Shown piece after piece: positions 18,162 to 56,767 of a DNA stretch of 64,000 nt. The stretch lies in contig NZ_KB291655.1 of NCBI RefSeq assembly GCF_000320405.1, forward strand, positions 1-64,000, read 5' to 3'. Numbering within the stretch: position 1 is the stretch's first letter; the number at the start of each line of letters is the position of its first letter. Source of the stretch: Clostridium celatum DSM 1785 (lineage in GTDB: Bacteria; Bacillota; Clostridia; Clostridiales; Clostridiaceae). The notes beneath the pieces are model-generated. The model was not told where the DNA came from, made no database searches, and worked only from the letters and a program-made list of their open reading frames with translations. A program made the translations under genes and the position numbers.

Positions 18162-20219
18162 CTAATCTTTTTTTCTTTTAAAAATTGCAACTCCGGCTGC
18201 AGTTAATAATCCTCCTATTGCAGCTATAACACCTGTTCCTACAACTGCACCAGTTTGTGGTAAATTCTCTGTTGGTTTATTTGGCTTTTCAGAAGTTTCT
18301 GGTTTTGATGTCTCTGGCCTTACTGGCGTCTCTGGTATTTCTGGAACTTCAGGGGTTTCTGGAACTTCAGGACTTTCTGGAACTTCTGGTATTTCTGGAA
18401 TTTCTGGGACTTCTGGCGTTTCCACTGAATCTATAAATGCCTTTGTCTTTTCTATTAAATCCTCATATGCTAATACTTTTTCATCTTCAGTAGCCATATC
18501 TGAAGCTAGTTTTTCCTTTATGTTTGCTAAACTTTCTTCTAAAGCAATTCTTTCCTCAGTTACTTTTTCACTTTTTAATGCTTCTTCAGCTGTAGCTATG
18601 GCACTATTAATTTTTTCCATTATTGAATCTAAAGATACAAACGTAGGCTTAATTTCAAATATTTCTGGTCTTCCAGCATCACTTTCCCATACTAACTTAA
18701 CAGCTACTATATTTCTTGGATTTTCTAAATGTAACTCTTTTAATGCTTCATCTAAAATTCCAAGTTCTATTGTTTCACCATTAATTGTTTCTGCAATAAC
18801 TTTTGCTCCTGATATATTATCTGCACCTTGAACCACTGTAACCTTTGAAGTTAATTTACCATCAAATATTCTATAAGTTAAAGTGTCTCCTGCTACTATA
18901 TCTCTAGTAGGTATATAAGCTGTATTTAAGTCATTATCTCTTATATTTTCAGTTCTATCTACATAAGTTCCGCTTGCTGTTGCACTTGTCTTATATTCTT
19001 TTTCTGTTGTATTTACAGCAATCATTCTAACTCTTGTCCATGGAAACTCTTCATTTCTATCTGAAATAACTCTCACATATCTTACATTTATGTCTAAGTC
19101 TTTAATTAAAGTTTCTGGTCCTGTGATTACTCCTACCTTAGTCCAGTTTTCTCCATCTACTGAATACTCTACATCTCCTGAAAGTATATCAGCTCCTGGT
19201 CCTTGAACTATTCTAATATCTCTTACATGCTTAACCTTTCCATAATCTAATTGAACAAATTCTCCTTCAAATATATCGTCTGAACACACAAATTGAGATG
19301 ATATATCATTGTCAGCTGCATATCTTGGATGTATAAGATCATTTGTACTTATACGTCTATTAGTTGTAACTTCTGCAATATCAAATCCTTCAGTATATAC
19401 CTTAATATTTTCTATGTTAACCTTTGTATCATTAATAGCTTTTATTCTAAAGTACTTTCCTACTACTGGATCATCAACTCTAAATGATGTTCCTTCGGCT
19501 ACCTTTTCCCATTGAGCATTATCAATTGAGCTTTCTATAACAAAATCAGATTCATTCATATTTCCATTAGCAGTTACAGCAACTATATGTTTAACATCAT
19601 TTAAAGCTAAACCTATAGTATCACCAGCTTTTAATGATACCTCTCCTATATTTTCTACTAATGTTACTTCCTCTGTACCTTCTACACTTTTCTTAGCTAT
19701 AGCTGTTTCTGATTTTATATTTCCTATAACATTTTCTAATGTTTTTCCTGTATTAACTTTAAAATCTCTTATATATAATTTCTTATCTGAATCTTCAGTA
19801 ATTCTGTATCTTACATATCTAGCTTCTATATCGCATTCTGCTAATAAATCATATTGTCCATCATTAACTTTAAGTTCTGTCCAATTTTCTCCATCTACTG
19901 AATATTCAAGAACACCCGTTGTTACTATATCCTCATCATAGCAAGTTCTACCCATTGCTAAAAATACGTCTTTTATAGTTTCTACTTGTCCTAAGTCAAA
20001 GCCCATATATTCACCTGCTTTAACTGTTTCTCCAGATACAAACCCTGAATCATTTCTATCGTCAACAATATATTCTGGTAAATATATATCTTTTAAAAAC
20101 CATTTATCTGTTGTTGGTCCTTCAATATTCATTATTGGGGTATAATTATATTTCTTCGTAAATATTTCATCCTCTAATATAGTAGTTTTATCATTGAAAT
20201 ACTTACTTCCAATATCATG
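18162..20219 (-). pseudogene. GH84 glycosidase, C-terminal part (carbohydrate-binding modules and LPQTG anchor) after a frameshift
   Basis: This frame continues the GH84 gene after a +1 shift at about 20217-20226: it is open from HDIGSKYFNDKTT on, although the first ATG is only at 20132 and has no ribosome site. It encodes two or three beta-sandwich discoidin/CBM32-like domains (each with an LEYSVDGENWT or VEYSVDGENWTKV core and a YVRYRI / YVRV edge strand), a helical FIVAR-like stretch, a Pro-Glu-Val/Ile-Pro repeat wall spacer (about 50 residues) and a sortase signal LPQTG with hydrophobic helix and KRKKD tail. It has no signal peptide of its own. Unless the shift is a sequencing error or is recoded, these modules are not made as part of the enzyme. 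Confidence 0.8.
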
Positions 20220-22098
20220 AGATTCTTATAAATGGATCTACCACTTTTTCTGCAATTATACCTTCTAAAGAATCTAATTCTGCTAAAGCTTTCATACCTT
20301 CATATTTTTTATTCCAGAATCCAACCATATCATCATTTTGTATAGATTCAAGCATAGAAACTATACCTAATCCAACTTCTCCATACTTTTCAAACTTAAC
20401 AAGTTGCTTTTCCATTTGAGATAATAATTCTTCATTATCTAACTTTTCTCTTAATGAATCAGGAGTACTGATCATTTTTTCAAATTCACTCTTTAAAGTA
20501 GCTAATTCAGAAGAAACATCTTCTCCATTATCCCATTTTTCCCACATTGTTTCTATAAAGCTATCTAATTCTGGCGAGTCTGGTCTACCTGTATCTAATC
20601 TAGTTGAATGATCTGCAACATATTTTAATTCTTCCTTTGCCTCTCCCCCAACTACTTTTAATGCATTATCCCATGATCTTTCATAATCATATGCTTTAGT
20701 ATTCCACGCATAATCTGCACCTGTTAAAGTTGATATTTTTGATGCTTCTGCAAATCTCATTGGATTAATAATAAATCCTGACATTTTTTCATCTAAATTA
20801 TTATCAAAACCATACATAGGTCCTAAGCCTAATTTATCTTCTTTATAATCATTAACAGGATAGTTCCACCATAACATCATTTTCTTGCCATATATATTTG
20901 TTACCACATCTACATCTTCCATAGTAACACCATGGGATGGTATAACATGATGACCTGTCCACATTACTTCTATATCTTCATCTAAAGTTTCAGCAAAATC
21001 TTTAGTATACTTCTGAATAGTTACTCCATCTAAATCAAACATTGATGTTTCCCAATATTCCTTTGGAACTGTAATTAATGATTTTACTCCATCTTTTACT
21101 TTTACAAACTCTTCATTAAATCTATTTAATATTTCTGCATGCTTATCACCTTGGCTATGTTCAATATCATCCCAAAGAATAGCAAATCTTCTAACACCCA
21201 TCTCATATAATGTTTCACACTTATTTAATAGCGCTTGAAAATCTGCTTCCCCTTCTTCACCATCAAATTTAATATCTATTCCTGGTGATATAGCAAATAT
21301 AAAATCAACTTTATTTTCATTAGCTGTATAAATAAGCTCTTGCATTCTATCTAATTCTGATTCTGGATATGGTTCTCTCCATAAATCTCTATGATATGGA
21401 TCTGATTTTGGTGCATATATATATGCATTCATTTTATTTTCACCATACATTTTTAATTGATCTAATCTTTCTTCTTGAGTCCAAGGTGTTCCATAAAACC
21501 CTTCAACTACAGCTCTTAATTCTATATTGGGTTCATCTTTTATGACAACTTCTTCAATATTTTTATCATTATCATTTTCTATAATTTGCTTTAATGTTTG
21601 AACCCCATAAAATGTTCCTGATTCATCATTACCTCTAATTATTATCTTATCTCCAGCTTCATCATCTTTAGCTGCTAAAATATAACCTTCTGATTTAGTA
21701 ACAGTTGAAGTATCAACTGCTAACTCAGTAATAGCATCTTCCATTTCAACTATATTATCATTTACTTCTCCAATATATATAGTAGTAGCTCCTTCAACTG
21801 GTATTTCATTAACAGTTATATCCATATTAGTTAAAATACTTTTTAATAACTCTACTGCATATAAATCTGCTTGATCTGCACCTATTATATTAATAGTTTC
21901 TGTTAATTCAACTTGTCCATTTAATATTTCCATACTCTGAGGAAGTGGATTAATTGTTAATTTCTTTTCAGATAATGTATTCACTACCTCATTTGTTATT
22001 TCTGTAGTAGCTTGTACACTTATCGATGCCATAGAGTTTATTGCTAACATTATAGCTAAACTTACTCCAACTTTTTTTGCAAATTTTTCTCTTGCCAT
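20215..22098 (-). CDS. Secreted GH84 beta-N-acetylglucosaminidase (NagJ/NagH-like), catalytic part
   Basis: A 627-residue frame: signal peptide (1-30, ending SVQA), N-terminal GH20b-like alpha/beta domain (about 45-180), GH84 catalytic barrel (about 185-480) and post-catalytic helices (about 490-620). The family mark EGFYGTPWT (about 200) and the catalytic Asp pair in FAILWDDIEHS (about 310) are intact, as are YIYAPKSDPYHR, WTGHHV and WWNYPVND. GH84 enzymes release beta-linked GlcNAc from glycans or O-GlcNAc proteins by substrate-assisted catalysis. The frame stops at DPFIRIS-TGA, and the rest of the protein continues in another frame, so the enzyme as read would be secreted without its wall anchor. 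GGGAGAG precedes the ATG. Confidence 0.9.
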   Translation of the reverse strand: MAREKFAKKVGVSLAIMLAINSMASISVQATTEITNEVVNTLSEKKLTINPLPQSMEILNGQVELTETINIIGADQADLYAVELLKSILTNMDITVNEIPVEGATTIYIGEVNDNIVEMEDAITELAVDTSTVTKSEGYILAAKDDEAGDKIIIRGNDESGTFYGVQTLKQIIENDNDKNIEEVVIKDEPNIELRAVVEGFYGTPWTQEERLDQLKMYGENKMNAYIYAPKSDPYHRDLWREPYPESELDRMQELIYTANENKVDFIFAISPGIDIKFDGEEGEADFQALLNKCETLYEMGVRRFAILWDDIEHSQGDKHAEILNRFNEEFVKVKDGVKSLITVPKEYWETSMFDLDGVTIQKYTKDFAETLDEDIEVMWTGHHVIPSHGVTMEDVDVVTNIYGKKMMLWWNYPVNDYKEDKLGLGPMYGFDNNLDEKMSGFIINPMRFAEASKISTLTGADYAWNTKAYDYERSWDNALKVVGGEAKEELKYVADHSTRLDTGRPDSPELDSFIETMWEKWDNGEDVSSELATLKSEFEKMISTPDSLREKLDNEELLSQMEKQLVKFEKYGEVGLGIVSMLESIQNDDMVGFWNKKYEGMKALAELDSLEGIIAEKVVDPFIRIS

Positions 22099-46645: not shown

Positions 46646-49600
46646 TTATCTTTTCTTTTTAAATAAGTTTACTCCTATTGCAGATATCATAGTACCAAAA
46701 ATTCCAATAACTCCTGCTGCTCTTCCCCCTGTATTAGGTAACTTTCCTTGTTCTTTATTAGTGCTATTACCATTACTACTAGTACTGCTACTTACATTAT
46801 TACTGTTTCCTGTATTAGTATTTCCAGTATTACTGCTAATATTGTCTTCAGTAGCATTACTACTTGAGTTATTATTTTCAGTATTTGAGCTATTACCCTC
46901 ATTCTTATCTACACTATTTTCTACTAATCTACCTAAAGCTGCTTCTAAAGTACTCTTCGCCTTATATACTTCATCTTCAGTAGCATCTTCATTGCTAAGA
47001 ACCAACTTAGCCATTTCTAATGCTTTAGCTACATTACTATAGCTTACTTCTGTATATTTACTTGCATCTAAGCTTTCTATCTTATTAATTAACTCTTGTA
47101 ACTTATCTTTATTTGGTTTTAATCTTAATTCAAGGTATGCTCTAATTAAATTATTATACCCTTCTTTAACTTCATTTTCTAAAGCATTTTCATCATTAAC
47201 AATAGTATTTGCCTCATCCAATGCAGTTTCTAAATTACTCCAAGTTGAAGTTATAAATTCTTCCTTATTTAATGCATTAATCTTTTCTATTAAAGCAGTT
47301 AAAGAAGCTTTATCCCCTTTATAGAAAGATAGCTTTTGCATTACAGATGATAATCTATCAAATGCAGCATCTACTTGTGATTGAGTTGATTTAGAATTAT
47401 TTAAAATTTCCTTTGCATTTTCAAGTGCAGCCTTAAATTCAGTAACAACTACAGGAACAACATTCTCTAAATCTTCATCTGTAATTTCCTCTGCAATCTC
47501 AATAGCAATTCCTAACGCTACTTTATTTACTTCCTTATCAATTGATTCATTATTTTCATTCACTATTATTTCATATATTTTTGGAAGTGGCTTACTAGCG
47601 TCAAATTCTATCTTAACTTCTACAATTTCATCATTAACAGCTAAGTCACTTAATTGTTTTCCTAATACACCTATAGTTTTCCAAACACCATTAGTATTTT
47701 TAACACTTACTGTAGCTTCACATATATTATCTTTATCTTGAAGGAATACTATATTTTCTACATTTGTTATTCTTGTCATCTTATAAATTAAATTTTCACC
47801 ATTTCTAACATTTTCAGCTTCAAAAGCAGTTGTTAAATCTTCATCATATAGATAATCCCATCTACCAGTATCAAAAGTACCTTCTACTAAGTCAACAGTA
47901 TCATCTCCAGCATCAGGAACTGTTTTATTAATTTCTACCTCAAATAATTGAACCCAATATCCTGAATTTTCTCCATTAGCAATTATTCTAATATATTTTG
48001 CCATTTTACCATTAGCATTTACAGAAGCTACCTTTTTATCTCCTTCTGATGTATATTGTAATTCACCTAATGAAGTCCAATTAATACCGTCTTCTGATAT
48101 TTGATATTCAGAATTTCTCATATAGTCCATATTTCCAAAGTAAGCAGTTACATCATAAAGAGGTATCTTATTACCTAAATCTATTTGTATATAATGTCCT
48201 GCCCCAGATGATTTATCTGACCAATACTTAGTAGACTTATCTCCATCTAAAGCTTTATCTATAGTATAGCTTTGATAAGTTCCTATATTTTGTGAAATAG
48301 TTGGTGTTATCTTATATACAGGTATTGCTTTAAAGCTATTAATATCTATATTCTTTGTATTATTACTCTTATTTACTAATCTAATATAAGTTGCAGCAAT
48401 ACTTTCATTAGTCTTCATTACACCATCTGAAATTGTTGTTTCAGCTTCACTCCACTCAATTCCATTTAATGAATATTCAAGTGATAATCCTTCATAATCA
48501 CTAGCATTAATATTAATCTCTGCTAACTTAATTGCTTTAGGAAGAGCAATTCCTATATAATCATTTTTAGCAAGCTCTAAAGCTGTAATATCGTTTATAG
48601 AATATACTCCACTTTCAAGACTTACTTCAATATTTAACTCTTTGTTTAAAGATGTTATAACCTCTGGATCTATTTCTTTAAACATTACTTTTGACATGAT
48701 ATTGCTTGAAGCAGTTATAACATCATTTATAAGTGGTTTAAGTCTTTTTTCTCCTACAGCAACAGCATATTGTACTGTTCCTGAGTCTTCCATTCTATCA
48801 ACAGTAAAATTATTCATTTCATTTAACTTTTCTGTTGCTAGATTATTGTTATCAAGCCATGTTTCTATTTTACCTTCTTCTGCAGCAATTAATGATTTCA
48901 TAGCTGCTACCCCTGATTCACCTAATGCTTTATATGCGCCTAAGAATGGTTCTATTTCTGAAAGTAAAGCTTCATTATTTATATTATTTGTAATAGCTTC
49001 ATAATCTGAAAGGATTATGCTAAATTCATTTAATAGTTCATTTGCAATATCCACTATTGATTTATTATTAGCTATTGCACTTTTTAATGCAGTTATTTTA
49101 TCTGATAAATACCAAGATTCATCATATTCAAAAGTTCCACTTGCACCACCATCATCCTTAAGGTATGACGTATTAGATGCAAATCGCATAAATTCCTCTT
49201 TTATTTCTGGTACAAGCTTTTCTATTGCAGTTTCCCAACTGCTCATATAATCAAAGCTATCTGTATTCCAAGTGTAATCAGCTATACTATATAAAGTAAC
49301 CTTTGAAGCTTCTGCTTGATTCATTGGATTTGAGAAGAATCCACTAACATTATCTAAGTCTGTATTTAAATTGTGTAAAGGAGCCATAAGAAGTCTTGAA
49401 TCACAATAGTCATTAACTGGATAATTCCACCAAACTGCTAAATCTTTATCTACTCCTGTTTGTGTCTTTGGCCACTCCATAACATCTTTAGATATATTAG
49501 ACATAGTTGCATGACCTGTCCACATTACTTGAATATCAGAATGTAAAGTTTGCATAAATGGTTTAAAGTAGTTGTTCATACTTGGTCCCCATGCAGAGTT

Positions 49601-52600
49601 ATATCTTGCAGAAATAACTATCATAGGTGCAACATCACCTTTTGCCTTTACAAACTCAGTATCAATTCTATTAATCCACTCTGCTTGCTTTTTACCATTA
49701 GTCCAATCATCTGTATCATCAAATAAAACACCAAATTGTCTTACACCTAAATCATATAATTGTTCGTATTTAGCTATAAGAGCATCGAAGTCTGCTTCAG
49801 TAAATTGTAATGTAGCTCCTGGATGAATTGTCCAGCAGAAATTAACATTATTTTCTGCTCCTGCTTGTGCAAGTTCAGCTATTTGTTTAGCTTCTTCTTC
49901 TGGATATAAATCCTTCCAATTACTCCTATGGTATGGATCATCCTTTGGAGCATAAATATAAGTATTCATCTTATATTCACTGCAATCTTTCATAAGACTC
50001 ATTCTTTCTTCATGACTCCATGGAGTTCCATAGAATCCTTCAATAAATCCTCTAAACTCTATTTCAGGATAATCTCCGATTACAACTTCTGCAAATTTAT
50101 TATTTTCGCTCTTTTCTAAAATTTGCCCTAATGTTAATACAGCATAATATGCTCCATCACTATCTGAAGCCACTATAGATATATTACCCTTTTCATTTTC
50201 ATCATTACTAGTTTTAATTACATATCCTTCTTTATTATCTAAAGCTTCATTTTCTAATAATTCACTTTCTATACAATTATCACAATGGTCCTTATCTGAA
50301 GTTATTATTATATTTGCCTTATCAGATACAACTTCGTCTGAAATATTATATTTTATATCATTTTCTTTTAATATCTCTTCTAACTTATCTACAGTTGCTT
50401 CTTCTTGTTCTCCATGAATTACAACATTAACATCTCCTACTAATTCCATTCCTTCTTCTGATAAATAAGTAGTTTCTTGAGGAACTGGATAAACTAAAGA
50501 ATCCTTCTCTTCATCTGGAACTACTGGTATTGTTGGTAATTCAATTTCACCTTCTAATCCCATTACTTCAACTTCATAAATTCTTGCAGCATTATCACTA
50601 CCTTGAGTAGGCTTATCTACTATTAACTTAACATATCTAGCTTGAGTTACAGGAATTCTATCCGTAGTTATTCCATCTATATTATTTGTAACCTTTACTA
50701 CCTCTTTATAATTTTCTCCATCTGAACTAACTTGTACTCTATATGCTTTAGTATTCATTGAAGCAGCTTCTCCACCTGCCTCTGAATGTTTTATAACTAT
50801 ATCTGTTATTGTATCGATTTTTCCTAAATCTATAGTTAAATTATGAGTACTTCCATTATTAGCACACCATTTAGTATTTGATTTTCCATCAACAGCTTTT
50901 TCTGGTGATTCAGCTGCTGCAACAAAGCCTGATGCAGTTACTGATTTTCCTAAAGCAAGATTAGTTTTTTCAGTACTTGCTGCATTTGAAACAGTAATTA
51001 TTCCCTTTTTAACAATCTCATCTTTTCCTAAAGCATTCTTAGCTTTTAATGTTACTGAATATACTCCTTCTTTTTCATAAGTTACAGTTGGATTTTCTTC
51101 AGTACTAGTTTCAATATTAGCGCCTGTAAATGTCCATTCAAATTCTGATGATGCCATTGAGCTTAAATTTGTAAATTTAACTTCTTGACCTGGTGCCACA
51201 AAAGTACTTGAGACATCAAAATCTGCTATTGCTTCAAAGCTACTATTTAAGGCTTCAGTTATAAACGCTAGTGCAGTTTTTTCTGAAAGCTTTTTACCAC
51301 TATTTAAACTAGACATATTTGAATTTAATAAACTCTTTAGTCTATCTGCCTCTGAAGTATTCTTATTTGACTTAGCTATTAAGTATTCTAAAGCTAATTT
51401 ATCATTTTCTCCTAAAAGCTTTAACTTATCTAAGTTTTCACTACAATGAGATAATATTTCACTAGGTAATTCTGCTTTTAATTTATCAGCAGCTTCAATC
51501 ATATCATTAAATTCTTTATTTAAAATTTCAATTTCAGCAGTAACATCTTGTCCTTTAACTATCTTTCTAAGTAAATCATCCATAGTACTTCTTATTTCTG
51601 GCGCATCTCCTCTTCCAGTAGAAGCCCAGCTTGCTTCCATTCTTGATGAATGATTTGCAAATGTTATCATATAAGGGGCTAAGTCGCCATACATTTTTTC
51701 TATAGCATTTTCCCAGGATTTTTGATAATCATATTCTGATGTATTCCAAGCATAATCCGCACCTGTTGCTAAAGTTATTTTTGAAAGTTCTGCATGTTCC
51801 ATTGGATTCATAGTAAAAAAGTCTATTTGACCTTCTAGAGCTTTATCTGCATTATATACTGGCCCTAAAGCTAATTTTTCTTTCATATAGTCTGTAACAG
51901 GATAGTTCCACCATATTCCCATTCTTTTCCCATAAACTGAATTTACGAAGTTAGCATTTTCTAAATCTATTCCTTCTGATACAACTACAGGACCTGTCCA
52001 CATAACCATTATGTCACTATCTAGCGTAGATGAAAAATCAGTTGTATATTTAGTTAACTCATCAATTGTTCCCATAGCATGAGTATCATATTCTGTAGGC
52101 ACAGTTATAAGAGGTTTAACATCACCTTTAGCTTTAACAAACTCTTTATTAAATCTATTTAGTAATTCAGCTTGCTTAACGCCATCTTTATTACTTATAT
52201 CATCAAATAATATGGCAAAACTTCTAACTCCCATGTCATATAATGATTGGCATTTATTTATTAAAGCTTGAAAATCTGCCTCTCCATTGTCTCCATCAAA
52301 ATTAATATCTATTCCTGGAGAAATTGCAAATACAAAGTCTACCTTATTTTCTTTAGACGTTTCAATAAGTTCATTCATTCTGCTCATTTCACTATCTGGA
52401 TAAGGTTCTCTCCAATTTTCTCTGTGATATGGATCATCCTTTGGAGCATAAATATAAGTATTCATTTTATTATCACCATAAAACTCTATTTGATCTAATC
52501 TATCTTCATTAGACCATGGTGTTCCATAAAATCCTTCTACTATTCCTCTTGTCTTCATAGTAGGTTCATCACTTATAACAACATCATTTGAATATTTAGA

Positions 52601-53125
52601 ACTACCGTCATTAACTATCAACTGCGTTAACGTTTTAACTCCATAAAAAGTACCATCTTCATCTTTACCTTCAATTAAAATTGTTCCACCTTTACCTTCA
52701 CTTGATTCAACAGCAAGTATATATCCTTCTTCTTTTAAGCCTTCTGTACCAGAAATACCTATTTTCTCCTTAGCTTCATCCATTTCTTTAATATCATCTT
52801 CTAATTCACCTATTATTAAAGTAGTTGATGATTCATCATAAGTTTCATTAATAGTAATATCATTTGCAATTAAAAACTCTTTTAAAATTCTAATTGCATC
52901 TTCATCTGCAACATCTTGCCCCTTTAAATTAATTGATGATGTAATTTTTAAAACACCTTCATTAGTCTCCACACTTTCAGGAACTTGGCTTAATTGTGGT
53001 ATGCTTATACTTACTTCTTCATTAACATCAGCAAAAGCATCAATTTTAGTTATAGTTAGACCATTAATAATAAACACACTAGCCATAGTTGTTGCTAATA
53101 TTCTTTTTAACATCTCTCTTTTCAC
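46646..53125 (-). CDS. Wall-anchored hyaluronidase-like protein with two GH84 modules
   Basis: About 2159 residues. Signal peptide (about 1-33), GH20b-like domain (40-180), GH84 module 1 (about 185-490: EGFYGTPWS near 198, Asp pair FAILFDDIS near 306), helices, PKD domain (about 650-720), CBM32 (about 725-850), a second GH20b-like domain (about 870-1025), GH84 module 2 (about 1030-1320: EGFYGTPWS, FGVLFDDTDD near 1133), helices, discoidin-like modules (about 1490-1850), three FIVAR repeats (about 1865-2070), an Asn/Ser-rich spacer and an LPNTG sortase signal. Clostridial NagH/NagI/NagJ normally have one GH84 module. GTG at 53125 is chosen: AGGGGG lies 7 nt upstream; the in-frame ATG at 53182 lacks a site. 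GH84 enzymes release beta-GlcNAc from host glycans. Confidence 0.93.
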   Translation of the reverse strand: MKREMLKRILATTMASVFIINGLTITKIDAFADVNEEVSISIPQLSQVPESVETNEGVLKITSSINLKGQDVADEDAIRILKEFLIANDITINETYDESSTTLIIGELEDDIKEMDEAKEKIGISGTEGLKEEGYILAVESSEGKGGTILIEGKDEDGTFYGVKTLTQLIVNDGSSKYSNDVVISDEPTMKTRGIVEGFYGTPWSNEDRLDQIEFYGDNKMNTYIYAPKDDPYHRENWREPYPDSEMSRMNELIETSKENKVDFVFAISPGIDINFDGDNGEADFQALINKCQSLYDMGVRSFAILFDDISNKDGVKQAELLNRFNKEFVKAKGDVKPLITVPTEYDTHAMGTIDELTKYTTDFSSTLDSDIMVMWTGPVVVSEGIDLENANFVNSVYGKRMGIWWNYPVTDYMKEKLALGPVYNADKALEGQIDFFTMNPMEHAELSKITLATGADYAWNTSEYDYQKSWENAIEKMYGDLAPYMITFANHSSRMEASWASTGRGDAPEIRSTMDDLLRKIVKGQDVTAEIEILNKEFNDMIEAADKLKAELPSEILSHCSENLDKLKLLGENDKLALEYLIAKSNKNTSEADRLKSLLNSNMSSLNSGKKLSEKTALAFITEALNSSFEAIADFDVSSTFVAPGQEVKFTNLSSMASSEFEWTFTGANIETSTEENPTVTYEKEGVYSVTLKAKNALGKDEIVKKGIITVSNAASTEKTNLALGKSVTASGFVAAAESPEKAVDGKSNTKWCANNGSTHNLTIDLGKIDTITDIVIKHSEAGGEAASMNTKAYRVQVSSDGENYKEVVKVTNNIDGITTDRIPVTQARYVKLIVDKPTQGSDNAARIYEVEVMGLEGEIELPTIPVVPDEEKDSLVYPVPQETTYLSEEGMELVGDVNVVIHGEQEEATVDKLEEILKENDIKYNISDEVVSDKANIIITSDKDHCDNCIESELLENEALDNKEGYVIKTSNDENEKGNISIVASDSDGAYYAVLTLGQILEKSENNKFAEVVIGDYPEIEFRGFIEGFYGTPWSHEERMSLMKDCSEYKMNTYIYAPKDDPYHRSNWKDLYPEEEAKQIAELAQAGAENNVNFCWTIHPGATLQFTEADFDALIAKYEQLYDLGVRQFGVLFDDTDDWTNGKKQAEWINRIDTEFVKAKGDVAPMIVISARYNSAWGPSMNNYFKPFMQTLHSDIQVMWTGHATMSNISKDVMEWPKTQTGVDKDLAVWWNYPVNDYCDSRLLMAPLHNLNTDLDNVSGFFSNPMNQAEASKVTLYSIADYTWNTDSFDYMSSWETAIEKLVPEIKEEFMRFASNTSYLKDDGGASGTFEYDESWYLSDKITALKSAIANNKSIVDIANELLNEFSIILSDYEAITNNINNEALLSEIEPFLGAYKALGESGVAAMKSLIAAEEGKIETWLDNNNLATEKLNEMNNFTVDRMEDSGTVQYAVAVGEKRLKPLINDVITASSNIMSKVMFKEIDPEVITSLNKELNIEVSLESGVYSINDITALELAKNDYIGIALPKAIKLAEININASDYEGLSLEYSLNGIEWSEAETTISDGVMKTNESIAATYIRLVNKSNNTKNIDINSFKAIPVYKITPTISQNIGTYQSYTIDKALDGDKSTKYWSDKSSGAGHYIQIDLGNKIPLYDVTAYFGNMDYMRNSEYQISEDGINWTSLGELQYTSEGDKKVASVNANGKMAKYIRIIANGENSGYWVQLFEVEINKTVPDAGDDTVDLVEGTFDTGRWDYLYDEDLTTAFEAENVRNGENLIYKMTRITNVENIVFLQDKDNICEATVSVKNTNGVWKTIGVLGKQLSDLAVNDEIVEVKIEFDASKPLPKIYEIIVNENNESIDKEVNKVALGIAIEIAEEITDEDLENVVPVVVTEFKAALENAKEILNNSKSTQSQVDAAFDRLSSVMQKLSFYKGDKASLTALIEKINALNKEEFITSTWSNLETALDEANTIVNDENALENEVKEGYNNLIRAYLELRLKPNKDKLQELINKIESLDASKYTEVSYSNVAKALEMAKLVLSNEDATEDEVYKAKSTLEAALGRLVENSVDKNEGNSSNTENNNSSSNATEDNISSNTGNTNTGNSNNVSSSTSSNGNSTNKEQGKLPNTGGRAAGVIGIFGTMISAIGVNLFKKKR

Positions 53126-53200
53126 ATCTTTTCCCCCTATTATATTTACGTAATAATTAAAAAGTAGACCATTAATTAACATTTATCTCTCTTACTTTTA

Positions 53201-55261: not shown

Positions 55262-56767
55262 TTATAAAACTCTTCTTGCTCTTCCTATAGAACTCCATGG
55301 AACTTGTCTTATTCCTATTAATCCTCCAGTAGTTGATGAATCTATCCACATATTATCTCCTATATACATTCCTACATGTCCAATAGATGTGGTGAATAAT
55401 AAATCACCAGCTTTTACTTCACTTAAGCTAACTTCATATCCTGCTTCGATTTGATTATAAGTTGTTCTACCTATATGAATATTAGCTTTTGCAAAAGCCC
55501 ACTGCATAAGACCTGAACAATCAAAAGCACGGTAACCTTGATCTACAAATGCTTCTGCATGATTATATTCTCCAGCCGCCGCATCTACAGGAAATCTATT
55601 TTTAAGAATCTGTAAATTTGCTGTTGTAAGCTCTTCTCCAGACCCCCCCCATACATATGGACTTCCTATATGACTTTTAAGCTCATTTAATATAATCTCA
55701 TATGAATTAGATACTGATTCATTAGTTGAGCCATTGCTAGATATATTAAAACTTATATAATCAACACTTACATATCCTACTGATCCATTAAAGTTTATTT
55801 TATACCATGCTCCTTCTTGACCCACTACGTCTACAACTGTCCCATTTAATAAATAACCTAAAACAAAAGAACTTCCATCTGCACTTTGACGTACTCTTAG
55901 ATTTGAACCTTCTACATTAATAACTTGTCCTTTTTTTATTGTTACACTACCATCTGGTGTTGCTTCTGGAGTTGGATTATTAGGTGTTACTTCTGCATTT
56001 GCTTTATCCATAGTTATATATTCTTTACTAACATATGCTATAGAATTATTATAACTAATTTTATACCATGTACCTTCTTCACCAATTATATTTACAGTAT
56101 CTCCTTCATATAAAGATCCTATTATTGCTGAACTAGTTGAAGAACTTTGTCTAACTCTTAGGCTTAACCCATCTAAATTATAAGCATATCCTATTGCATT
56201 CATCTCTGTAGTATTTCCACTATTACTACTGTTATCGTTATTTGTTCCATCAATTAAAATATAATCACTATGCACATATCCATAACTATTATTATATTTT
56301 ATTTTGTACCATTCACCTTCAGTTCCTACTATAGATACAGTAGTATCATCTACTAAATATCCAATAATAGATGCATTTAATGACGCACTACTTCTTACTC
56401 TTAAATTAGGAGCTGCATCATACACTCTTCCTGTTGTTGTAATTTCATAAGATGGTAAATATAATTCTTTAACGTAATCCCCATGCACATATCCCGTAAT
56501 ACCATTATAACTAATTTTATACCATCCATTACTATTTGATATTATATCAAATGTAGTACCTTCAGTCATTGTAGTAAGTATGCTTGAACTTGTAGATGCT
56601 TCTGCTCTAACTCTTAAATAGCTACCATCTACATTTACAACTTGTCCCCTATTAATAGTTGCTACAGCCATATTTTCTGTGGCATATGCTGGCACAGATT
56701 TTAATGCTATTGTTGCACCTACTACCCCTGAAACAGCAAGTAACTGTTTTATTTTCTTTCTTTGCAT
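55262..56767 (-). CDS. Secreted NlpC/P60 peptidoglycan hydrolase with four SH3b domains
   Basis: A 501-residue exported protein: signal peptide (1-29, ending AYA), four bacterial SH3 domains in tandem (about 37-98, 110-172, 187-250 and 275-335; each with LRVR and WYKI-YNGxxGYV cores) and an NlpC/P60 domain (about 355-500). Catalytic Cys in [10 protein letters not shown] (about 420) and His in GHVGMYIG (about 460) are present. Such enzymes cut the gamma-D-Glu to diaminopimelate bond of stem peptides. The catalytic domain contains a G8 tract (55643-55650) in the VWGGSGE motif. AGGTGA precedes the ATG. Confidence 0.95.

Follow-up and report, generated by a model that had tools for sequence, protein, structure and literature searches.

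What does a bacterium gain from carrying two complete GH84 glycosidase modules in one surface-type polypeptide, and how did such a gene arise? These questions are raised by a minus-strand gene at positions 46646-53125 of the 64,000-nucleotide stretch of Clostridium celatum DSM 1785 analysed here (the window; contig NZ_KB291655.1, positions 1 to 64,000), from a 3.55 Mb draft genome of 121 contigs in which a profile search found 4 open reading frames (ORFs) holding 5 GH84 modules. GH84 enzymes remove terminal beta-linked N-acetylglucosamine (GlcNAc), with the acetamido group of the substrate itself assisting in catalysis. We favor, with a probability of roughly 0.7, the reading that the gene encodes a wall-anchored double exo-beta-N-acetylglucosaminidase formed by the fusion of two single-GH84 genes, its activity, substrate and wall attachment being predicted from sequence. 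In one respect the initial annotation somewhat undervalued the protein, which joins modules from two deeply separated GH84 clades in a fusion that related species have kept.

The reading frame is uninterrupted over 2178 codons (46646-53182, minus strand). An in-frame ATG lies at its upstream end (53182), and residue numbers in this work are counted from that codon. The most plausible start codon, a GTG at 53125 with GGGGGA six bases upstream, gives a product of 2159 amino acids and coincides with the end of the gene as drawn in the initial annotation. A Pfam scan of the protein returned 11 families at E 0.01, including two NAGidase (GH84) stretches with a whole-protein E-value of 4.8e-223. Specifically, module 1 matched the GH84 profile (PF07555) at 380.9 bits and module 2 at 375.2 bits, each over positions 1-294 of 295 and each counted as full length; such separate, near-complete matches exclude a chance resemblance. 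The initial annotation had proposed two complete GH84 modules on one polypeptide, with a GH20b-like domain in each half, and both elements were recovered in this single ORF, the latter as two PF02838 stretches. The motifs that it had named were likewise found in the translation, namely EGFYGTPWS and YIYAPKDDPYHR (each twice), FAILFDDIS, FGVLFDDTDD and LPNTG. From the whole gene down to its individual parts, the features are as follows.

46646-53125, minus strand: whole gene for the tandem-GH84 surface-type protein (ORF with GTG start)
53027-53125, minus strand: signal-peptide-like N-terminal segment, KR-rich and hydrophobic, ending near AFA (sequence; kept in two relatives)
52565-53005, minus strand: GH20b-like domain 1, approximate ends (two PF02838 stretches; NagJ alignment from residue 55)
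51656-52549, minus strand: GH84 module 1, NagJ-like, residues 212-509 (Pfam, NagJ alignment, tree)
52199-52204, minus strand: putative catalytic Asp pair of module 1, D327-D328 (NagJ alignment)
51260-51598, minus strand: NagJ_C post-catalytic helical domain, residues 529-641 (PF21774)
51020-51217, minus strand: PKD domain, residues 656-721 (PF00801)
50579-50941, minus strand: CBM32-type F5/8C domain 1, residues 748-868, the better of two stretches (PF00754)
50495-50554, minus strand: fusion joint, residues 877-896, weakly conserved (the match of standalone relatives begins here; 45-65% identity in three comparisons)
50069-50494, minus strand: GH20b domain 2, residues 897-1038, the better-scoring stretch (PF02838)
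49178-50053, minus strand: GH84 module 2, SARY subclade (Pfam, BT_4395 alignment, trees)
49715-49720, minus strand: putative catalytic Asp pair of module 2, D1155-D1156 (BT_4395 alignment)
48719-49120, minus strand: GH84 post-catalytic helical domain of module 2, residues 1355-1488 (PF21809)
48299-48685, minus strand: conserved domain of unknown fold, approximately residues 1500-1628 (alignment)
47921-48301, minus strand: F5/8C (CBM32-type) domain 2 (hhalign to domain 1, probability 90.6; L053 match at 797-910)
47537-47920, minus strand: conserved domain of unknown fold, approximately residues 1755-1882 (alignment)
46919-47515, minus strand: FIVAR-like repeats of the C-terminal stalk, approximate bounds (PF07554, 29.1 bits, cut-off 29.2)
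46649-46741, minus strand: LPNTG sorting signal, hydrophobic stretch and KKKR tail (sequence)

This layout modifies the earlier view of the spacing between the two modules. PKD and CBM32 domains do separate them, together with a helical domain, but the FIVAR repeats that were thought to contribute lie instead near the C-terminus, and they are best described as FIVAR-like since their score falls just below the Pfam cut-off. Profile comparison of segments 1500-1628 and 1755-1882 with both F5/8C domains gave no confident match. In terms of cellular location, the protein carries a putative signal peptide, an LPXTG motif, a hydrophobic stretch and a basic tail, the sequence features of a sortase substrate, and the host genome contains two sortase-family matches. 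From these features we infer that the protein is attached to the cell wall.

With respect to catalysis, NagJ of Clostridium perfringens (PDB 2cbi) aligned to residues 55-646 of the tandem protein at 703 bits. This alignment places D327-D328 of module 1 on NagJ D297-D298, and K248, Y365, W424, N426, D431, N459 and W519 on further active-site residues of NagJ, with the positions set by the alignment itself. Nine core residues (G187, K218, D297, D298, Y335, W394, N396, D401 and N429 in NagJ numbering) are present in both modules. Across 83 non-redundant GH84 modules the Asp pair was found in all 83 and the full set of nine in 80. Loss of essential residues in module 2, which had been singled out beforehand as the observation that would speak against a bifunctional enzyme, was not seen. 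Two positions do set module 2 apart: the equivalent of NagJ W490, present in module 1 as W519, is missing, and the PTEY site reads SARY, a substitution found in 7/7 members of the module 2 clade and in no module outside it (7/83 overall).

The pattern of selective constraint is in keeping with two working modules. In comparisons with three orthologues over 14 segments, nonsynonymous divergence (dN) was lowest in GH84 module 2 (0.030-0.044) and GH84 module 1 (0.053-0.063), highest in the stalk (0.34-0.36), and 0.21-0.34 at the fusion joint. As module 2 shows the least dN of all 14 segments, it is not a decaying passenger, and both modules look catalytically intact. Each would be expected to remove terminal beta-linked GlcNAc by the usual substrate-assisted retaining mechanism, the CBM32-type domains would tether it to glycans of the host, with O-glycans of mucin and related structures the likeliest, and the freed GlcNAc would feed the cell. 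The tandem protein probably strips GlcNAc from host sugars such as those of mucus.

Published work on related enzymes helps to narrow the substrate. According to passages of PMC10245121, GH84 enzymes of Bifidobacterium bifidum cleave beta-1,6-linked GlcNAc from mucin core 2 and core 4 structures; BbhIV is specific for the beta-1,6-GlcNAc of mucin core structures (Takada et al.); and in core 4 the beta-1,6 branch must leave before BbhI efficiently cuts beta-1,3-GlcNAc. The same passages describe four C. perfringens GH84 paralogues that free GlcNAc from a core-2 glycan with promiscuous use of linkages and that split into two clades, to which modules 1 and 2 may correspond. Since these GH84 enzymes act on mucin core glycans, the likeliest role by analogy would be to harvest GlcNAc at the cell surface from glycans of the mucin type. 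The same kind of comparison makes hyaluronan an improbable substrate, because PMC11496695, in the sections available, credits a lyase with hyaluronan degradation in C. perfringens ATCC 13124 and describes NagH, NagJ and NagK as not being intrinsic hyaluronan degraders; it also cites a project report that saw no hyaluronan-degrading activity for the recombinant enzymes NagH to NagL from strain 13.

Whether the two modules perform different tasks was a question raised by the initial annotation, which took HPGA in one half and SPGI in the other as a sign that they may cut different linkages. The contrast is real, and it is a weak guide to linkage: HPG occurs in 34/83 GH84 modules and SPG in 29/83, and the motif is uninformative because NagJ carries SPG and BT_4395 of Bacteroides thetaiotaomicron carries HPG, both being named O-GlcNAcase in their PDB entries (2cbi also hyaluronidase). 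The presence of two distinct GH84 modules with intact catalytic residues on one surface-type protein is supported; the argument from HPGA and SPGI falls away. The modules may still differ in specificity, given the deep split between their clades, the replacement of PTEY by SARY and the absence of a W490 counterpart in module 2, all of which are leads only. The two modules may divide the labour between them.

The strongest competing account is that both modules carry the same broad exo-GlcNAc activity and that fusion only raises catalytic density at the surface. The nine core residues are indeed identical between the modules, and the promiscuous linkage use reported in passages of PMC10245121 for the four C. 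perfringens paralogues is what a simple dose effect would lead one to expect. The modules nevertheless come from two deep clades, each under strong constraint, and we consider redundancy a credible explanation that falls somewhat short of even odds. Less probable is an account in which module 2 is a modified partner that has kept its fold and Asp pair and serves mainly in glycan binding or in some narrowly specialised reaction. SARY, uniform in its clade and found in none of the other modules among the 83, and the absent W490 equivalent would fit such a partner; the retention of all nine core residues and the greatest conservation of any of the 14 segments point the other way, and make this account unlikely.

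In terms of origin, the tandem gene reads as a fusion of two pre-existing single-GH84 genes from different deep clades. The modules are 40% identical to each other (145/361 aligned positions) and belong to the same family with a similar GH20b-GH84-helical layout in one gene, features that could also suggest an internal tandem duplication in which one module was copied within the gene and the copies then diverged. Each module, however, resembles modules from other proteins much more strongly than it resembles the second module of its own chain. In trees built quickly from 83 modules and more carefully from 70 rows, after leaving out 13 long or divergent rows, module 1 groups with modules of Clostridium tarantellae (L064) and another member of the family (L035) with support 99/94, and module 2 groups with three standalone proteins in genomes G005, G023 and G027 with support 100/100. 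The quick tree gave warnings of long branches meeting, one of which persisted in the careful tree, and NagJ itself stood outside both trees and was compared by phmmer only. A single clade for the 8 tandem modules was rejected at a cost of 261.7 log units (approximately unbiased (AU) test, p 1.46e-73), which argues for fusion over internal duplication. The latter is ruled out unless the alignment is badly wrong, and we regard it as highly improbable. Finally, an assembly artefact joining two adjacent genes might be imagined in a draft of 121 contigs, but the same joined frame in three other Clostridium assemblies rules it out and leaves it a negligible chance.

Standalone relatives of the second half indicate where the joint lies. 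L053 (1324 codons) aligns with residues 897-2170 and L052 (1340 codons) with residues 865-2170, both at ~60% identity, and L050 (1190 codons) aligns with residues 897-1958 at 57% identity, the three alignments together spanning 57-61%. In all three, a signal-peptide-like N-terminus ends near the match to residue 897, and the C-terminus carries a sorting-signal-like sequence, LPKTG in L053 and L052 and IPDTG in L050. Among standalone proteins, L064 stands nearest to module 1, and its GH84 is followed by CBM32, cohesin and fn3 domains; the Pfam scan of the tandem protein gave no cohesin match. These relationships suggest that a NagJ-type front (signal peptide, GH20b, GH84, NagJ_C, PKD and CBM32) became fused to the N-terminal side of a GH84 protein from the second lineage, which would already have had its C-terminal sorting signal and would have lost its own signal peptide. 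The four module 1 rows form one group (100/100), and the fusion likely arose once, less firmly so on the module 2 side.

Several observations weigh against the reading of a singly derived, wall-anchored double exo-enzyme. The four module 2 rows were grouped at only 84/98 and in 86% of 200 bootstrap trees. With regard to the LPNTG anchor of the initial annotation, the motif, the hydrophobic stretch, the KKKR tail and the genomic sortase matches all speak for it, but the Pfam LPXTG model PF00746 gave no match to the tandem protein at E 0.01, and the same model does match another GH84 protein of the host genome (L046). No close solved structure was found for module 2, which matched BT_4395 at 329 bits, 6pv5 at 326, NagJ at 325, 6pwi at 281 and 6pv4 at 194; a PDB search at E 1e-120 with the standalone L053 gave no match either. 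Lastly, given SARY for PTEY and the lack of a W490 equivalent, the substrate of module 2 could differ from that of plain exo-GlcNAc removal.

The tandem arrangement is rare in the sets searched and has so far been seen in a few close relatives. A single frame with two GH84 modules occurred in 3/68 genomes of the genus including the host (13 GH84-positive) and, in the family, in the same 3/206 genomes (19 GH84-positive, among the best 10 candidates per genome). Among the best 5 candidates per genome, no further tandem was found in 391 genomes of the class (18 GH84-positive) or 398 of the phylum (42 GH84-positive), and none in 395 genomes of the phylum of G961, the genome of the Bacteroides fragilis locus (9 positive); with these caps a few genomes were scored incompletely. 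The class of G964 (the genome of the Paraliobacillus locus) gave none in 299 genomes (53 GH84-positive), and 5 further individually chosen genomes, all GH84-positive, gave none either. The survey sets overlap and some genomes appear to be counted under two handles (for example G201/G963), so the counts are not summed. A contig scan of 84,980 species, among which the host's own genome is possibly not included, returned 44 loci; 3 of these carry the full-length tandem protein at 78-79% identity, in C. cuniculi (G008) and Clostridium sp. K13 (G059), both equated with these genomes by identical module sequences, and in Clostridium sp. D53t1_180928_C8. That scan looked for two short peptide patterns taken from the half of the protein that holds module 1, which more distant tandem proteins could escape. 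The 109 GH84-bearing ORFs of the window and loci, many of them fragments or duplicates, include 6 with two modules, which amount to four distinct proteins. A full-text literature search, in which most subscription papers were out of reach, found no description of a tandem GH84 protein, and the 'two GH84' of the accessible parts of PMC10245121 and PMC12997984 are two separate proteins. A common and already described tandem architecture, the finding named beforehand as fatal to the proposal, was therefore encountered neither in the genomes nor in the literature searched.

The surveys also brought to light other GH84 arrangements. Adjacent unfused GH84 ORFs occur in Paraliobacillus salinarum (L088:7941-12947) and in a Bacteroidales metagenome-assembled genome (L100:3051-8026), in the latter with stop-to-stop frames overlapping by 19 bases; such side-by-side ORFs are arrangements from which a fusion could arise. 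Genome G963, apparently the same as G201 (C. tarantellae; L055, L060, L064 and L065), holds an unusually large GH84 set, with 10 full matches, spread over 10 contigs, and a further match that is partial and broken. Single GH84 matches in G1483, G1594 and G1656 lie in open frames of 2883, 3231 and 2763 codons, which exceed any GH84 frame listed for the genus. One of the tandem carriers, C. cuniculi (L061), has been proposed to act in epizootic rabbit enteropathy, according to parts of PMC6302431, and no link to the gene is claimed.

The gene neighbourhood is shared in part. All three relatives have a VWA gene of a VWA/BatA operon no more than ~3 kb from the tandem gene, and the counterpart in the window (28.5-31.3 kb) lies ~15 kb from the tandem gene on the opposite side. 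Since the VWA gene is shared but differently placed, the neighbourhood is common and a local rearrangement has happened. For the DnaJ-domain gene next to the tandem gene, the contigs that carry the tandem protein in G059 and G008 hold relatives at 44 and 47%, at a distance of some 23-25 kb from the tandem gene in each. When proteins of the window between 38 and 63.5 kb other than the tandem protein were compared with loci L041-L065, the sole match was a histidine kinase in L047, a locus of the host's own genome, and the standalone module 2 loci gave one weak neighbour match (30% identity) to the whole window. Carriage on a mobile element was considered and rejected: tblastn hit 5 phage records and 301 plasmid records, and in no record did one place cover 80% of the tandem protein. 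Promoter-like sites were no commoner than in shuffled sequences (41 versus 42.7), so no reading was drawn from them, and terminator-like sites (3 versus 1.4 expected) were all on the plus strand within the tandem gene. Elsewhere in the window, a second GH84 gene (18162-22098, minus strand) appears broken into a 627-residue ORF with GH20b, GH84 and NagJ_C and a 656-residue ORF with F5/8C in another frame, and its nearest relatives are single open frames of ~1250-1300 codons. Near the tandem gene, a minus-strand gene at 55262-56767 with four SH3_3 stretches and NlpC/P60 perhaps encodes a secreted peptidoglycan hydrolase.

Against known systems, the two halves of the protein have separate counterparts. 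NagJ (CpGH84C), which carries one GH84, is the nearest solved relative of module 1 and has the same aligned active-site residues, including W490. Module 1 is of NagJ type by best match, NagJ_C domain and active-site residues, whereas the whole protein is not, having no cohesin match and two GH84 modules. For module 2 the best solved match, BT_4395 (BtGH84), shares HPG, the Asp pair and other site residues; it differs in having PTEY for SARY and one matched stretch in a 737-residue chain and, to our knowledge, lacks a sortase anchor. The comparison points to a GH84 subclade defined by SARY at the PTEY site. In B. bifidum, the accessible parts of PMC10245121 describe BbhIV and BbhV as extracellular GH84 enzymes, BbhIV acting on mucin O-glycans, and these are two separate proteins.

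In C. perfringens, passages of PMC12997984 describe NagJ as containing a cohesin that binds the NagH dockerin, so that two GH84 enzymes are held together non-covalently where the tandem protein is one polypeptide. The Pfam scan of the tandem protein gave no dockerin match, and orthology of module 2 to NagH would be no more than a possibility. By analogy, the fusion can reasonably be taken to do covalently what cohesin and dockerin do in C. perfringens, a possible route by which clostridia could swap that pairing for direct fusion. The closest functional parallel is StrH of Streptococcus pneumoniae, which likewise has two beta-hexosaminidase modules of one family on a single LPXTG protein and whose two GH20 domains, as described in parts of PMC5215778, PMC8894350 and PMC4449183, differ in glycan binding. 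StrH is distinguished by its GH20 family, by G5 domains instead of CBM32, PKD and FIVAR, and by its N-glycan target, and PF00728 (the GH20 catalytic domain) is absent from the 11 Pfam families of the tandem protein; as StrH belongs to another family, the likeness is one of function and not of membership. Tentatively, then, and with rather less confidence than the redundancy account receives, the protein may be a GH84 counterpart of StrH and a covalent substitute for the cohesin-dockerin pair, in which NagJ-type and SARY-type modules of complementary linkage preference would work one after the other on a single branched O-glycan of mucin while the intervening CBM32 keeps them in place. With free-standing relatives available for each of its halves, this naturally fused protein offers a model for asking whether the covalent pairing of two beta-N-acetylglucosaminidases helps to strip branched glycans.

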